Part shown: piece after piece, positions 11,581 through 17,219 of the stretch
Numbering within the stretch: position 1 is the first letter of the stretch
How the letters are laid out: every line of letters starts with the position of its first letter
Assembly: GCA_902578115.1 (NCBI GenBank)
Contig: CACHBR010000007.1
Location: 1 to 49,572, forward strand
Direction of reading: 5' to 3'
DNA: 49,572 nt
From: an uncultured Pelagibacteraceae bacterium
GTDB lineage: Bacteria; Pseudomonadota; Alphaproteobacteria; Pelagibacterales; Pelagibacteraceae
The notes under the pieces: model-generated
What the model saw: the letters and a program-made list of their open reading frames with translations, nothing else
What the model was told of the DNA's origin: nothing
Databases searched by the model: none
Made by a program: the position numbers and the translations under genes

Positions 11581-12333
11581 ATGAGTGAAAACCAGAGAAA
11601 AGTTTGGATTACAGGAGCTAGTAGTGGAATAGGCAAAGCCACTGCTGAAAAATTTGCAAAAGAAAATTGGAAAGTTGCAATTTCTGCTAGAAGAGAAGAA
11701 ATTTTAAATGAAATGGCAAAAGATCAAAATATTTTTGCTTTCCCAATGGATGTAACTGACCAGAATAAAACAGAGGAAACTTTTAATAAAATTATAAAAG
11801 AGTTTGGTGATTTAGACCTTTGTATTTTTAGCTCAGGTACCTATGAGAGAAAGTCAGAAAAAGGATTGAGTGTAGATAATGTAAAAACAGTAATGGAGAT
11901 AAATTTTCTAGGTGTAGTTGGTTGTGTAAAAGCGGTTCAAGAATACTTTATAAATAAAAAAAGTGGTCATATTTCAATTGTTTCATCACCTGTTGGTTAC
12001 AGAGGTTTACCAAAATCATCTGGTTATACTGCATCAAAAGCTTCGCTGAACAATTTTACACAGGGAATATATTTCGATTTTAAAAAGTTTAATGTGAGAG
12101 TTACTTTGATTTCCCCAGGATTTATCAAGACTGCTTTAACAGATAAAAATGAATTTAAGATGCCATTTTTAAAAGACACTAAATATGCTGCTGATAAGAT
12201 TTATGATGGTTTAATTAACAAAAAATCATTCGAAATTATATTCCCACCTCAAATAGCTTTGATTTATAAAATCTTTCAGATTCTACCAAATAAAGTTTAT
12301 AATTTTTTGATAAATAAATTTGTAAATAGATAA
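11581..12333 (+). CDS. SDR-family NAD(P)-dependent oxidoreductase
   Basis: A 250-residue Rossmann-fold enzyme of the classical short-chain dehydrogenase type. The cofactor motif is WITGASSGIGKATAE (TGxxxGIG, about residues 10-24), with a structural SSGTY in place of the usual NNAG, catalytic Ser in ISIVSSPVGY and YTASKAS supplying the Tyr-x-x-x-Lys pair near residues 157-161. The missing NNAG asparagine is unusual but seen in some members. Substrate unknown. A TATAAT lies only five bases before the ATG, so the message may start almost at the initiation codon. Confidence 0.92.
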   Translation: MSENQRKVWITGASSGIGKATAEKFAKENWKVAISARREEILNEMAKDQNIFAFPMDVTDQNKTEETFNKIIKEFGDLDLCIFSSGTYERKSEKGLSVDNVKTVMEINFLGVVGCVKAVQEYFINKKSGHISIVSSPVGYRGLPKSSGYTASKASLNNFTQGIYFDFKKFNVRVTLISPGFIKTALTDKNEFKMPFLKDTKYAADKIYDGLINKKSFEIIFPPQIALIYKIFQILPNKVYNFLINKFVNR

Positions 12334-12358
12334 AATAGTTTTTAAGATTATATTCAAA

Positions 12359-12577
12359 ATGAAAAAATACGTAATTATATTATTAGTTTTCTATTTGAAT
12401 TCTATATCTGCTTTATATGCAGAAAATAGTAAACAAGGGAAAATTGATTTTGATTGGTTTAATTCAGAGGAATATAAAATGATAAAAAAAATGCATAATT
12501 GTAAAGTTCAGTATCTCGATGGTTCTTTTGGAACATGTAATCCTTACAATTCATATAGAAACCCTAATTTAAGATGA
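12359..12577 (+). CDS. Small exported protein, unknown (first of an exported-protein cluster)
   Basis: A 72-residue protein with a good signal peptide: MKKY, a hydrophobic core, and SALYA before ENSKQ as a likely cleavage point near residue 21. The mature part of about 50 residues has two cysteines (NCKVQYLDGSFGTC) that could form a disulfide in the periplasm. No family is recognised. Its stop overlaps the next start as ATGA, tying it to the lipoprotein gene that follows. Confidence 0.68.
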   Translation: MKKYVIILLVFYLNSISALYAENSKQGKIDFDWFNSEEYKMIKKMHNCKVQYLDGSFGTCNPYNSYRNPNLR

Positions 12578-13113
12578 ACTCTTCAAAATTAATCACATTT
12601 TTTTTTATTTTTTTTGTAGCAGTGTCATGTACACCTAGATCGTTATCTGTTGCTCAAAAAAATGCTTGTATGGCACCAAGTGCGAATTTCAAAGCTTTGG
12701 ATGCTATTCATTCCACAAAAATTCATGCAATTTTATGGGCTAAGAAATTTGCTAAACAAGCTTCCTCAAAAGAATTGAGCTTAAGTGATAAATGTAGACA
12801 AACGCAGATTTTAATTAAAGCTTTGTACGGACTAAGAGACGGTGAAAGTGCTACCTGGGAAAATCCACAAAATAATACATCTGGTAAAATTAAAATTTTA
12901 AATACGATTGTTCAAACTGGAATCTGGGGATACGGAGGCTGTAGAGATTATTTATCTTATATAAAAATTGATGATAAATTAGAGACTTTTAAATTTAGAG
13001 CCTGCCCTAAAGAATTAGGTGCTTTTGAACTAGTTGATAGTGCAGGTTTTCCGATACCTGGACATTTATATTTTGCGGGTTGGTATTTTTATGATTATAG
13101 ATTTTTTGAATGA
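12574..13113 (+). CDS. Lipoprotein resembling 17-kDa surface-antigen (RT0821/Lpp0805-type) proteins
   Basis: A 179-residue protein with a lipoprotein signal peptide whose lipobox AVSC gives Cys19 as the lipidation site. Residues from about 88 (RDGESATWENPQNNTSGKIKI) through GYGGCRDYLSYI and FRACPKELGAFELVD show the W-N-P...SG...G / C-R / A-C / G...-L pattern of the rickettsial 17-kDa antigen domain in surface lipoproteins of alphaproteobacteria. That similarity is by eye and remote. It overlaps both flanking genes by four bases, so it is one of a translationally linked set. Confidence 0.7.
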   Translation: MNSSKLITFFFIFFVAVSCTPRSLSVAQKNACMAPSANFKALDAIHSTKIHAILWAKKFAKQASSKELSLSDKCRQTQILIKALYGLRDGESATWENPQNNTSGKIKILNTIVQTGIWGYGGCRDYLSYIKIDDKLETFKFRACPKELGAFELVDSAGFPIPGHLYFAGWYFYDYRFFE

Positions 13114-13421
13114 AAAAAATTATTCTTTTATTTATATTCTTGTTTAGCTGTGTAAATACAGGCTCATCTATAAAAGATTCTCCAAGCATAAAAAACGTTC
13201 AAAAAGATAAATGTGATATTATTTCTTTTTTTTCATCAAATCAGAATAAGAAAATAGTGAAATGTAATAGTGGTTACAGTTTCCAAATGCCAAATGAAGA
13301 AATTGATAGTAAATCATGTAAAATAGAAAGATACAGAATAAATTTAGCTGGTTCTTATACAATTAAAGAAAGCTTGAAATGTAAAGATTTTGAAAATGAA
13401 AACATTATTACTATATATTAA
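13110..13421 (+). CDS. Small lipoprotein, unknown
   Basis: A 103-residue protein with a short signal peptide and a lipobox LFSC, making Cys14 the likely lipid-modified residue. The mature part has four further cysteines spaced as CDIISFF...VKCNSGY...SCKIE...KCKD, suggesting two disulfides. The spacing resembles that of the product at 14397-14666, so the two may be paralogues. No known family is recognised. It overlaps the next gene by 26 bases, in a different frame. Confidence 0.65.
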   Translation: MKKIILLFIFLFSCVNTGSSIKDSPSIKNVQKDKCDIISFFSSNQNKKIVKCNSGYSFQMPNEEIDSKSCKIERYRINLAGSYTIKESLKCKDFENENIITIY

Positions 13422-13905
13422 AAAAATAAATATTTTAACTCTTTCAATATTATTCGTTTTATTTCCTTCACAAACTAAAAGTGAAAGTCTAAATGTTTTT
13501 ACTCAAACACCAGTTATAGTTAATCCAGAAAGTGAATATGAAGGCATGTTGTTTGATCTTATACTAGATCAAATGGTTTATCATTATTATAAAATTCCTA
13601 GGGACGGAGTTAAAAAACATAACTCAACTTTATTTTTATCTATTAGTGACCCTGCTCACGGAAAAATATATAGTTGGGAAAGTGGAAAATTTTATGGATT
13701 AATAAGAATGATTTCATCCAAAAAAGAAAAAGAAAAAATTTGTAGAATATGGCAAGAGGAAATCGGTAAATTTTCTATAGTTGATAATTACGGTAAAAAT
13801 TCATATCAGAGAGTAACTAGTAAAATTCGTTCAAATAAAGCATGTTTTGATCTTGATGAAGGAAAGTGGGTGATGGTTGATGAAAATTATCACTTTAAAA
13901 ATTAA
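13396..13905 (+). CDS. Exported protein resembling 17-kDa surface-antigen proteins
   Basis: A 169-residue protein with an N-terminal signal sequence (MKTLLLYIKK, a hydrophobic run, then QTKSES). The mature part has the order GKIYSWESGKFYGLIRMI, EKICRIWQEEI, NKACFDLDEGKWVMVDE, which follows the W-SG-G / C-R / A-C / G-K-W layout of the rickettsial 17-kDa antigen domain, as in the lipoprotein at 12574-13113. There is no lipobox, so it is likely periplasmic or outer-membrane associated. The ATG at 13396 is preferred to a TTG two codons earlier. The start lies inside the preceding gene. Confidence 0.65.
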   Translation: MKTLLLYIKKINILTLSILFVLFPSQTKSESLNVFTQTPVIVNPESEYEGMLFDLILDQMVYHYYKIPRDGVKKHNSTLFLSISDPAHGKIYSWESGKFYGLIRMISSKKEKEKICRIWQEEIGKFSIVDNYGKNSYQRVTSKIRSNKACFDLDEGKWVMVDENYHFKN

Positions 13906-13927
13906 TTAAAAATAAGTATAAGAAGTT

Positions 13928-14404
13928 ATGAAAAAAGCTTTTGTTATTATAAGCTTATTACTGTTAACTTTCGCATGTTCTTCAACTTATAAAGTTAAAC
14001 CATATAAAGACAAAACTCCGGATTGGTATATTGTTGATAAAGATGAATGGAGAACAGTTTATGGCAAAGCTCTTGGCGAGTCCGAATCTTTAGAGATGGC
14101 TTCACGAAAAGCAGAGGCACTTGCTGTAAGTAATATTATTTTTAAAATTAAAAGTGAAATTGACGCGACAAAAAAAGTTTATTTAGCAGATAGATACAAG
14201 AAGATAGACGGAAAAGTATCATCCACTCAAAAAAATAATTTTGAAGAAAAAATAACTATTGCATTAGATAATTATCAAATTTCAAAATATAGAGTATCAA
14301 ACAAAGAAGTTTTCAGAAATGATGATAATTATAAAGTATTTGTTGAAGTAGCCTTTAAAAAGAAAGAGCTATTCAAGTCATTAGATAAAATCAATATTGA
14401 TTAA
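13928..14404 (+). CDS. LPP20-family lipoprotein
   Basis: A 158-residue lipoprotein: signal peptide, lipobox TFAC with Cys17, then KTPDWY and GKALGESESLEMASRKAEALAVSNI (ends quoted), the hallmark of LPP20-like proteins in which an alanine-rich helix follows a Gly-x-Ala turn. The C-terminal strand DNYKVFVEVAFKKKEL completes the domain. LPP20 proteins sit on the outer membrane with unknown function and are often found next to other envelope proteins. Its 3' end overlaps the following gene by eight bases. Confidence 0.75.
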   Translation: MKKAFVIISLLLLTFACSSTYKVKPYKDKTPDWYIVDKDEWRTVYGKALGESESLEMASRKAEALAVSNIIFKIKSEIDATKKVYLADRYKKIDGKVSSTQKNNFEEKITIALDNYQISKYRVSNKEVFRNDDNYKVFVEVAFKKKELFKSLDKINID

Positions 14405-14666
14405 GTTTTTTCCATTATTCATCAGTTTAATTCTTTTTTCATGTGCTAAGCAAAATATAAAATTCCATAAAGCGTGTAATTTTAAAACCATAAAAGGTAA
14501 AGAGGTTCTTGTGTGTGATGAGAGGATGTTAAGAAAAGTAAAATCGATTAATTCTAAAAATAGAGATTGTGAAAAATTTGAATATTTGACTGTAATAAAT
14601 GGTGTAGAAGCAGAAAATGAGGGAATTAAATGCAAAACACCTTATGGTTACGAAGTAATAAGATAA
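14397..14666 (+). CDS. Small lipoprotein with TTG start, unknown
   Basis: An 89-residue protein whose signal peptide MIKFFPLFISLILFSC ends in a lipobox LFSC (Cys16). The signal peptide demands a start at the TTG at 14397 or the next codon, ATT; there is no ATG, so this is a non-canonical start inside the end of the LPP20 gene. Five cysteines including the lipidated one occur in the mature part, with spacing like the lipoprotein at 13110-13421, consistent with an old duplication. Function unknown. Confidence 0.6.
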   Translation: MIKFFPLFISLILFSCAKQNIKFHKACNFKTIKGKEVLVCDERMLRKVKSINSKNRDCEKFEYLTVINGVEAENEGIKCKTPYGYEVIR

Positions 14667-14701
14667 TTGAATTTATTTTTTATATTTCATAAGATATTTT
14701 T

Positions 14702-14836
14702 ATGAAAAATTTAATTATTATCATAATTTTAGTTATCCTTTTCAGTTCTGAAGTATTAATTTTTAAAAAAAAAAATTGGAATAAATTAGTTGAAAAAACA
14801 GGACAGCAATATGAAAAAATTATGGAAAACTTTTAA
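14702..14836 (+). CDS. Possible 44-residue membrane microprotein
   Basis: An ATG at 14702 opens 44 codons ending at 14836. The start MKNLIIIIILVILFSSEVLI is a single hydrophobic helix and the tail FKKKNWNKLVEKTGQQYEK is basic and helical. It overlaps the next gene by 26 bases in another frame. It fills an otherwise empty 145-base gap in a cluster of exported proteins, which supports it, but there is no clear ribosome-binding site. It could also be chance in AT-rich DNA. Confidence 0.35.
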   Translation: MKNLIIIIILVILFSSEVLIFKKKNWNKLVEKTGQQYEKIMENF

Positions 14837-16643
14837 AGTTCTTCTCTTTTTTTTAATTTACCCATTTTATTCTCATTCTGTCGAATTGAATGAATATGGT
14901 TTAAATCATAACAGTTTTTCTGAATTACAAGAACTAAGAACAATATATATCACTGGAGAAGAAGCAAATTATATAGACCCAGAAGACACTGAAAACTTAG
15001 CTAATATAAAAGATTTTTATTTAAATATTAATTTTTTATCTGATGAGGAAAATACAATTTATCAATTTTGCTGTAGATCTAAAAGTGATCTCAACGGATT
15101 CTATAAGGGCACAATAAATGGAGCAAAAGAAAAATTTAAAACCTTAAGTCCTAGAGAGGTTCATGGCTTAGATAAGCAAATTGAAGTAAAAAATTATTTA
15201 GTATTTGATAAGGGCAAATTAACAAAATCAGTTTATATTAAGGATAATAAATATAATATTTTGCAAATAACCCCTGAAAAAAAAACTTACTCACTGCTTT
15301 TTAATTCTCAATTAAAATTCAAAAATACTATTCCATCATTGGATAAAGTTAATTGGCGCGATATACCTTTAAGTGATTTTGCTTTATTGATAGAGCTTAG
15401 ACCTAATTATACCCAAATCTCAGATGTAGCTTCAAGTGTTACTCTTTTTAAAATACCAAAAATGGGTTTGTTTATTATTTCAGATGAAAAAAGTAATAAG
15501 GTGATTTATACAGACGAAAATCTTAAAAAAGTAAAATATCACGGAGATTATAACGAAAATGCTGATTTACAAAATCCGTCTAGTTTTCTAAATCCAACAT
15601 TATTAAATTTTTTACCTACCGAATTCAAAAAAATATTAGATAAAGGACGAGAAATAAATTCAAATTATCCATTAAATTACAATTTAGATGACATTATGAA
15701 TTTAGTAAGCAATGTTGAAACATTTTACGCTGACAATGTTAATTTTGCTAAACAAAAAGAAAGTGAGCTACAAAGTGCAATACAAAAAAAACAAGCTGAA
15801 CTCAAAGCAGAGCAGGATAGGATTAAAGCGGAAGAATTAAAAGCTGCTCAAATAGAAGAAAGAAAAGCGCAAGAAGAACGTCAAAAAATTTTAGATCAAA
15901 AAGCTGAAGAAGAAAATCAAAGAATGTTAGCCGAATATGAGGCGGCAGAAGCTGAAGAAAAAAGACAAAAATATTTGCAATATGGTCTGATAATTCTCTT
16001 AATTGGTGGATTAATTGCTTTTATATTTTTCACTAATTTTTTAGATAATTTACAAAAATTTTTAAAGCAAATATTTAGTAAATTTAAAAAGAAGAAAGTG
16101 AAAAGTTACTTACCTAAGGATTATGGAAAAAAGAAAGGTAAACAAAAAAAACAACTGGGCATCTGGTGGGCTGATTGGGCTAATAGTTATGAAAAACCAT
16201 TATCTGCAACACTAATTGTCACTTTTAGTTATATAGTAGGTGTGATCGTAGTTTCCCAGATCTTAAAAATTACAGAACTTGAAAATAATGATAACGTAAT
16301 TTCTATTACGGTTATATTATTCCTGGTTCCCGTTTATCATATATTTAAGCTTTGGGCAGGAATAATTCATTATCATTGCCCTAAGTGCAAAAGAATACAT
16401 GCTGGTGAAATATATTCATCTGCCCATATTGGATCACAGCAAAGAGCAAAAAAATACAGAGTTCAAGATAATAGAACGTTAAAATATAGAGATCACCGAG
16501 GTATTGGCCAAAGGCACAACTATACAATAGAAAGAGACGAAACTGGTGTTGAACAAGTTGATACTTATCATAATAAAGCTAAGTGCCTACTTTGTAACCA
16601 TAAGTGGGAATATAATTCTTCAACATCAACAAGGGTACGATAA
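14811..16643 (+). CDS. Large membrane protein with coiled coil and C-terminal zinc ribbon, unknown
   Basis: A 610-residue protein. Signal peptide about residues 1-25; an exported region to about residue 310 with no recognised domain; an alanine/glutamate/lysine-rich coiled coil at about 315-395; a membrane helix (YGLIILLIGGLIAFIFF) at about 397-414; a basic cytoplasmic loop with IWWADWANSYEKPLSATL; two further helices; then a C-terminal zinc-ribbon-like domain with HCPKCKRIHAG and KCLLCNHKWEY (two CxxC pairs). The start at 14811 has AGGAC upstream and begins the signal peptide; a TTG 21 bases earlier is rejected. I know no family with this architecture. It may sense or scaffold envelope components. 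Confidence 0.75.
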   Translation: MKKLWKTFKVLLFFLIYPFYSHSVELNEYGLNHNSFSELQELRTIYITGEEANYIDPEDTENLANIKDFYLNINFLSDEENTIYQFCCRSKSDLNGFYKGTINGAKEKFKTLSPREVHGLDKQIEVKNYLVFDKGKLTKSVYIKDNKYNILQITPEKKTYSLLFNSQLKFKNTIPSLDKVNWRDIPLSDFALLIELRPNYTQISDVASSVTLFKIPKMGLFIISDEKSNKVIYTDENLKKVKYHGDYNENADLQNPSSFLNPTLLNFLPTEFKKILDKGREINSNYPLNYNLDDIMNLVSNVETFYADNVNFAKQKESELQSAIQKKQAELKAEQDRIKAEELKAAQIEERKAQEERQKILDQKAEEENQRMLAEYEAAEAEEKRQKYLQYGLIILLIGGLIAFIFFTNFLDNLQKFLKQIFSKFKKKKVKSYLPKDYGKKKGKQKKQLGIWWADWANSYEKPLSATLIVTFSYIVGVIVVSQILKITELENNDNVISITVILFLVPVYHIFKLWAGIIHYHCPKCKRIHAGEIYSSAHIGSQQRAKKYRVQDNRTLKYRDHRGIGQRHNYTIERDETGVEQVDTYHNKAKCLLCNHKWEYNSSTSTRVR

Positions 16644-16662
16644 ACATTAGAAATCTATGTTT
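16642..16662. terminator. Weak stem-loop between two convergent genes
   Basis: AAACA / TGTTT plus TAG / CTA form an eight-pair stem with one bulged base around an AAAT loop, starting on the stop codon of the large membrane protein gene. The 51-base gap to the convergent DUF3833 gene is A/T rich. Probably a weak terminator for the plus strand; the strength is doubtful. Confidence 0.35.
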
Positions 16663-16694
16663 ATTAATAGAGAATAAAATCTTTCAATATTTTT

Positions 16695-17219
16695 TTAATT
16701 TTTAACAAAAACCACAGTCAAATCAGCTACTCTAAAACCAAACTTTGTCATTTTAGCTCTGTTGATTGCAATGGTGTCACTTTGTTTAAATATCCAATCA
16801 TCAAATGTGATTTTTATTTCTTTTCCTTTTACAGGGACAAGTAAAACATACTCTAATTTGAAAGCTGATCCATAAGAGAAACCTTTTGCTGTTCCAACAA
16901 CATCTGCAGCTGTACCCTCATAATTATGTTCATCTTTTTTTATAATTTTCCATTGTCTTGTTTGAACTTCGCCATCTGACCAATTAAATTTTTCGTCAAG
17001 AATTAATTGTTTACCGTCCCACTTTCCATCTAGGTCCGCTGAAAATTGTCTTGTAACTTTACCACCTCTATTTTGAAGCACACCATACGCTTTGACATTT
17101 CCATTTAAAAATTCCTCAATAATTAGTCTTGGTTTTTGATCTTTAAAGTCTTCTGGTTTCATTCCTGCTACACAATTCGTTAAAAACAATGTTAAAAATA
17201 AGGTTAAAATATATCTCAT
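16695..17219 (-). CDS. DUF3833 lipoprotein
   Basis: A 174-residue protein with lipobox LTNC (Cys16) and the DUF3833 pattern: FLNGNVKAYGVLQNRGGKVT, FNWSDGEVQTRQWKI, YEGTAADVVGTAKG and the C-terminal MTKFGFRVADLTVVFVK. It is predicted to form a lipocalin-like beta barrel anchored in the envelope. DUF3833 genes recur beside CFA-synthase-like methyltransferases, DUF1365 and an FAD oxidoreductase, as they do here, so a role in carrying or presenting modified lipid is plausible but unproven. It is the last gene of the long gcv transcription unit, three bases after the methyltransferase gene. Confidence 0.88.
   Translation of the reverse strand: MRYILTLFLTLFLTNCVAGMKPEDFKDQKPRLIIEEFLNGNVKAYGVLQNRGGKVTRQFSADLDGKWDGKQLILDEKFNWSDGEVQTRQWKIIKKDEHNYEGTAADVVGTAKGFSYGSAFKLEYVLLVPVKGKEIKITFDDWIFKQSDTIAINRAKMTKFGFRVADLTVVFVKN

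Follow-up and report, generated by a model that had tools for sequence, protein, structure and literature searches.

TolA-type stalk proteins combine an inner-membrane anchor, a long periplasmic helix rich in Ala, Glu and Lys, and an outer domain that touches outer-membrane partners. Zinc-ribbon families have paired CxxC knuckles joined by a beta-hairpin, and proteins of the NCBIfam family TIGR04211 (SH3 and membrane anchor, YgiM-like) run from an exported domain through a coil into a membrane helix. In polymorphic toxin systems such as CDI and Rhs, modules recombine at a fixed junction and displaced orphan modules are found downstream (PMC3482391). In SAR11, hypervariable regions encode cell-surface genes (PMC2217521).

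The window, meaning the whole 49,572-nucleotide stretch of DNA that was analysed, encodes a 610-residue protein that is the last of eight genes in an inserted cassette (Table 1). Like TolA-type proteins, it has an inner-membrane anchor, an Ala/Glu/Lys-rich helix and an outer domain. However, the order is reversed, with the outer domain at the N-terminus, and there are three membrane helices and a predicted cytoplasmic cysteine domain. The protein has no Pfam match to TolA, and its neighbours are not Tol-Pal genes. The succession of exported domain, coil and membrane helix is shared with TIGR04211, which gave 22.8 bits against a cut-off of 65 (E 5.6e-5). This match spans residues 308-406, that is, coil and transmembrane segment alone, and the SH3-domain part of TIGR04211 has no match in the protein. 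The tail has the paired knuckles of zinc ribbons and a predicted hairpin, but about 65 residues lie between the knuckles. No zinc-ribbon family reached its cut-off (best 16.4 bits against 30.3); for PF13717 (Zn_ribbon_4) the best E, 0.0089, came from one homologue and was below cut-off, and the window copy gave E 0.44. The tail is a probable zinc ribbon that would bind zinc.

No significant match was found over any folded part of the protein in Pfam, NCBIfam, PHROGs, PADLOC or the PDB, and no match to this architecture was found in the literature. These results agree with an earlier sequence-only reading, which knew of no described family with this order of parts; no full-length match to a characterised family emerged.

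Table 1. Features of the cassette and of the 610-residue protein, in window coordinates.
Feature	Coordinates	Strand	Remarks
Inserted cassette, about 4.36 kb	12334..16694		between convergent SDR (11581-12333) and DUF3833 (16695-17219)
72-aa exported protein, first cassette gene	12359..12577	+	signal peptide; 4-base overlap with next gene
179-aa lipoprotein	12574..13113	+	weak 17 kDa surface antigen likeness
103-aa lipoprotein	13110..13421	+	weak homologue (105 aa) in G340 cassette
171-aa exported protein	13390..13905	+	G340 cassette has a 165-aa homologue (E 2e-16)
158-aa lipoprotein	13928..14404	+	weakly LPP20-like
89-aa lipoprotein	14397..14666	+	G340 cassette has a 100-aa homologue (E 2e-8)
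44-aa small membrane peptide ORF	14702..14836	+	overlaps start of 610-aa gene
610-aa modular envelope protein, gene of interest	14811..16643	+	ORF reads through
Signal peptide, residues 1-23	14811..14879	+	by inspection: Lys-rich start, then a hydrophobic core; SHS precedes VE
Exported domain, residues 24-290	14880..15680	+	occurs as two allelic types; vicinal pair C87-C88 conserved
A/E/K/Q-rich helical stalk, residues 291-388	15681..15974	+	recombination breakpoint within about 330-390
TM1, residues 393-411	15987..16043	+	hydropathy peak
Basic, predicted cytoplasmic linker (KKVKSYLPKDYGKK...), residues 412-463	16044..16199	+	apparent swap point in G823
TM2-TM3 hairpin, residues 464-514	16200..16352	+	TM2 = 464-482, TM3 = 496-514
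Zinc-ribbon-like domain, residues 516-610	16356..16640	+	CPKC (523-526), CLLC (592-595)
Cysteine pairs of zinc-ribbon-like tail	CPKC 16377-16388; CLLC 16584-16595	+	

Architecture and topology of the protein

Kyte-Doolittle profiles have three membrane-helix peaks in the window protein, the number that had been estimated from the sequence, and in four of the five full-length homologues. In the most distant homologue (L023) the third peak does not reach the threshold, and another (L021) has one additional weak peak within the exported domain. The 52-residue loop between TM1 and TM2 is basic (16 Lys and Arg versus 4 Asp and Glu), as is the C-terminal tail (18 versus 9), whereas the loop between TM2 and TM3 is acidic (1 versus 3). 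Given this charge asymmetry and the positive-inside rule, the protein should have its N-terminus outside and its C-terminus inside, with the tail predicted to lie in the cytoplasm, where the earlier reading had also placed it.

AlphaFold2 was run with six sequences as input. The model of the whole 610-residue protein was weak (mean pLDDT 51) and had helices at residues 292-342 and 365-422. The tail, at a pLDDT of about 72-83, was modelled with a long beta-hairpin between the two CxxC pairs. Modelled alone, the exported domain had a mean pLDDT of 52.7, with its better half at approximately residues 40-120 of the construct. OspA and TarM were considered as folds of this domain and rejected because their Z of about 6-7.5 is in the commonplace range for the tool and the models are of low confidence.

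The stalk, a charged helical segment of ~90 residues, has a weak heptad bias, and its i,i+4 salt bridges are no more common than in shuffled sequences. On these two grounds a coiled coil is favoured and a single alpha-helix was rejected. The weak heptad bias and the AlphaFold2 helices are in keeping with the Ala/Glu/Lys coiled coil that had been proposed to lead into the membrane. The exported nature of the N-terminal region also stands, but the region, with the signal peptide set aside, measures about 270 residues and not about 290. Both cysteine pairs of the proposed C-terminal domain are present; its bounds are better set at approximately residues 516-610, since the interval 540-610 given earlier omits the pair at 523-526. 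The overall order of exported part, coil, membrane and cysteine tail is supported by charges, hydropathy and AlphaFold2.

Family members and conservation

The family comprises six full-length members, the window protein and five homologues at 42-69% identity, together with a seventh (G823) that is truncated by the contig end and has another tail beyond the stalk and first helix. Carriers number 3 of 61 relatives and 7 of 397 Pelagibacteraceae genomes; few members are available, and many of the genomes are incomplete. The window itself belongs to a Pelagibacteraceae (SAR11) genome. All homologues in the named collection come from uncultured Pelagibacteraceae (SAR11), mainly single-cell isolates. 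Beyond this family, 385 genomes of the class and 259 of the phylum yielded no credible match to the zinc domain. The candidates that were rejected are weak matches out of frame against an RND-type gene (L009 and L010), a match in unrelated coding DNA (L061) and short, weak matches that contain stops (L062 and L063).

The four tail cysteines (CPKC and C[LK]LC) are invariant in all six full-length members, which leaves the earlier reading unrefuted on this point. H539 and H597 are equally invariant. In the exported domain an adjacent pair, C87-C88 (window 15069-15074), is likewise kept in 6/6 full-length homologues and may form a vicinal disulphide.

Metal handling, with the tail as a zinc buffer or sensor and the outer part as a metal-binding domain, would make use of both the four conserved tail cysteines and the conserved outer pair. 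However, the cassette has no metal transporter or metal regulator, inspection of the exported domain revealed no His/Asp/Glu cluster of the ZnuA/ZinT kind, and metal sensing leaves the modular exchange described below unexplained. We therefore regard this explanation as unlikely.

The envelope cassette and its insertion sites

Inspection of the cassette products identified four with lipoprotein signals and two with ordinary signal peptides, and all eight appear to be exported, lipidated or membrane-bound. This all-envelope neighbourhood fits a role of the 610-residue protein as an envelope sensor or tether, which we infer from its architecture. The 179-residue lipoprotein matches PF16998 below cut-off (E 0.039; its G340 homologue, E 0.0054), and the 158-residue lipoprotein has a resemblance only to LPP20 (PF02169; 16.3 bits, E 0.013, against a gathering score of 25.9). 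The frame of the 44-residue ORF is conserved in all five copies examined. No cassette protein tested matched a PADLOC model at E up to 0.1, no toxin or defence family was matched among the cassette proteins, and no intrinsic terminator was found within the cassette.

The cassette genes are inherited together. The LPP20-like gene and the 610-residue gene occur in the same 3 of 61 relatives and are both missing from the other 58. The 179-residue gene is present in all seven carriers of the 610-residue family; when 122 family genomes were considered, only four had it, all of them known carriers. G340 belongs to another genus. There, the 610-residue homologue has around it, in changed order and orientation, counterparts of the 179-, 171- and 89-residue genes (E 4e-18, 2e-16 and 2e-8) and a weak homologue of the 103-residue gene. 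This co-occurrence in a rearranged order argues for a functional linkage of the cassette genes that would go beyond hitch-hiking.

Congeners lack the cassette at this site: SDR and DUF3833 are adjacent, 3-24 bp apart, in 12 of 13 regions, and in the thirteenth (L045) the cassette is absent too but the SDR has no match. The cassette was found at three genomic locations, two of which adjoin tRNA genes. In L019 it has tRNA-Asn on one side and tRNA-Cys on the other, two genes that several related genomes keep about 48 bases apart, and L022 has the same tRNA-Cys side. In G340 and G823, tRNA-Arg follows the 610-residue homologue. The three insertion sites suggest that the cassette is transferred as a unit, presumably by homologous recombination in flanking DNA. 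As part of our overall reading, mobility or patchy inheritance of the cassette in SAR11 is put forward tentatively. Like the hypervariable regions of SAR11, the locus has variable cell-surface genes between conserved core genes (PMC2217521); it differs in being a small stand-alone cassette at three sites with one mosaic gene.

A different gene set lies beside tRNA-Cys and valS in another genome (G849, L075:293-7380). It includes small exported proteins, a 595-residue membrane/coiled protein and, by inspection, TerB-like and caspase-like proteins, which suggests that the tRNA-Cys/valS site is a hotspot for accessory cassettes. Separately, several congeners have an FAD-oxidoreductase-like gene between TspO and a Yip1-domain gene (L038:2301-3458, L044:8400-9503) that the window does not have.

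Insertion next to tRNA genes at two of the three locations, together with patchy presence, would also suit a superinfection-exclusion gene derived from a phage or provirus and carried as cargo. Against this stand the lack of a PHROGs match and of any integrase in the cassette. Neither the 610-residue protein nor the LPP20-like gene has viral relatives in phage records or viral contigs, and a viral origin was rejected on this ground. Superinfection exclusion is thus an improbable explanation.

Mosaicism and rates of change

Different parts of the 610-residue gene have different closest relatives. In the exported domain the window copy pairs with L019 (79% identity) and L020 with L022 (84%), whereas across TM1 and the linker the window copy pairs with L020 (86-87%) and L019 with L022 (91-94%). 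Nucleotide quartet counts, which compare four sequences and do not date the events, favoured window plus L019 by 120:2:1 over residues 1-290 and window plus L020 by 52:3:0 over TM1 and the linker. The upstream cassette genes group the window with L020 against L019 with L022 (84:3:5), and within the cassette the 610-residue gene alone is mosaic. From the switching quartet support, breakpoints are placed near the gene start and in the stalk (about residues 330-390). A further difference lies in the TM2-TM3 hairpin, with 17-33% identity between types, despite conservation of the linker and the zinc domain on either side. We read this mosaicism as separate exchange of the outer and inner modules by recombination.

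The gene also differs from its neighbours in rate. Its dN/dS of 0.29-0.38 compares with 0.02-0.18 in the upstream cassette genes, where one value of 0.51 reflects very few changes. Between the window and L020 it has dN 0.27 and dS 0.81, as against 0.002-0.054 and 0.08-0.32 for the upstream cassette genes and flanks. Between the window and L019 its dS of 0.52 is similar to that of the neighbours (0.31-0.76), and its dN is 2.6 to 8 times theirs. The simplest cause of the high dS is an unsampled divergent donor pool, and recombination with such a pool could be the source of much of the protein change. Diversifying selection is not proven, since dN/dS is below 1.

These data bear on the main rival to the reading that we favour, namely that the protein is a structural tether or scaffold, TolA-like in shape, that arranges the cassette lipoproteins in the service of uptake, adhesion or envelope integrity, takes no part in signalling or conflict, and varies as ecotypes vary at their surfaces. 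A plain tether is in keeping with the all-envelope cassette, with a stalk of suitable length and with the cell-surface genes of SAR11 hypervariable regions (PMC2217521). However, a pure tether has no need of a conserved cytoplasmic four-cysteine domain, and one would not expect a scaffold to have its outer and inner parts exchanged separately. We consider it conceivable but doubtful.

Possible exchange at the linker and downstream remnants

The match of the G823 copy to the family covers the stalk and TM1; from the linker onward it is replaced by an unrelated membrane segment, and from the stop codon on the downstream DNA again follows that of G340. The G823 assembly is fragmented, with the contig cut inside the gene, ambiguous bases, 6% contamination and a possible frameshift in the last part. 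Because of this poor assembly, the apparent tail replacement at the linker is suggestive only. Elsewhere in the family, the best match to the G823 tail (L065) was rejected, as it lies in an unrelated 548-residue protein; other matches are weaker.

Downstream of the gene, L020 has a decayed linker copy of 41 bases (93%), and L012 has one of 40 bases (88%), behind which comes the remnant YNSSTSTKVA. They resemble what past tail exchanges or duplications would leave behind. In L012 (G004), three genes lie between the 610-residue homologue and the decayed copy (L012:8562-12883), encoding a 367-residue protein, a 720-residue CASTOR/POLLUX-type channel-like protein and a 241-residue voltage-gated K+-channel-like protein (by inspection). 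The 367-residue gene was considered as a related module and rejected for lack of similarity.

Apparent exchange at a junction and downstream remnants would also be common ground with CDI and Rhs. If this were a polymorphic toxin or contact-dependent system, delivery would fall to the exported part, the exchangeable C-terminal module would be the effector, and decayed displaced modules would lie downstream. The apparent replacement of the C-terminal part in G823, at a fixed linker, and the linker remnants in two relatives, which resemble displaced orphan modules (PMC3482391), are consistent with such a system. However, no immunity-like gene follows the window copy, which ends 51 bases from the convergent DUF3833, and none was found downstream of the L019 and L022 copies, where a tRNA gene and valS lie instead. 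Moreover, the cassette encodes no secretion partner, the zinc domain is conserved across types and not polymorphic, and the one tail swap, seen in a poor assembly, carries little weight. With no immunity gene and a tail predicted to stay inside the producing cell, a toxin is disfavoured and seems to us improbable.

Proposed function

We favour, at a probability of roughly 40%, the reading that the cassette encodes an envelope-spanning complex with exchanged modules, in which the 610-residue protein acts as a periplasm-spanning sensor or tether, probably in a setting of conflict with phage or competitors. The protein would be anchored in the inner membrane by its three helices, and the ~90-residue stalk, up to ~13 nm long if it is one straight helix, would hold the exported domain toward the peptidoglycan and outer membrane. 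There the co-encoded lipoproteins would be located, as likely partners of the exported domain. A signal from contact at this domain could travel along the stalk and helices as far as the zinc-ribbon module, and this module would bind a partner in the cytoplasm. The outer and inner modules would be swapped independently by homologous recombination.

Independent module exchange beside conserved lipoproteins suggests that the counterpart changes, as a phage or competitor would, and conflict of this kind would be the likeliest setting. Counting against conflict, the window copy has no known effector and no defence or toxin family match, and adhesins and transporters, too, commonly exchange modules. 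A more specific proposal, that the protein is a SAR11 sensor-effector whose outer recognition module and inner membrane and zinc modules are shuffled between strains, acting with its own lipoproteins in phage defence or interbacterial conflict, is speculative and rather unlikely.

SAR11 is among the most abundant bacterial groups of the ocean and has a streamlined genome; to our knowledge, few defence or competition genes have been recognised in it. The cassette and the modular recombination, both of which the sequence-only reading had missed, are stronger findings than the architecture. A 4.4-kb all-envelope cassette retained in a streamlined SAR11 genome is a concrete, testable gene set. It is rare and patchily inherited, and related cells swap pieces of its largest protein, as would be expected if it served to sense enemies or partners that change. 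With one gene whose outer and inner parts have different genealogies, beside conserved neighbours, the cassette would qualify as a candidate recognition system that has so far gone unnoticed.
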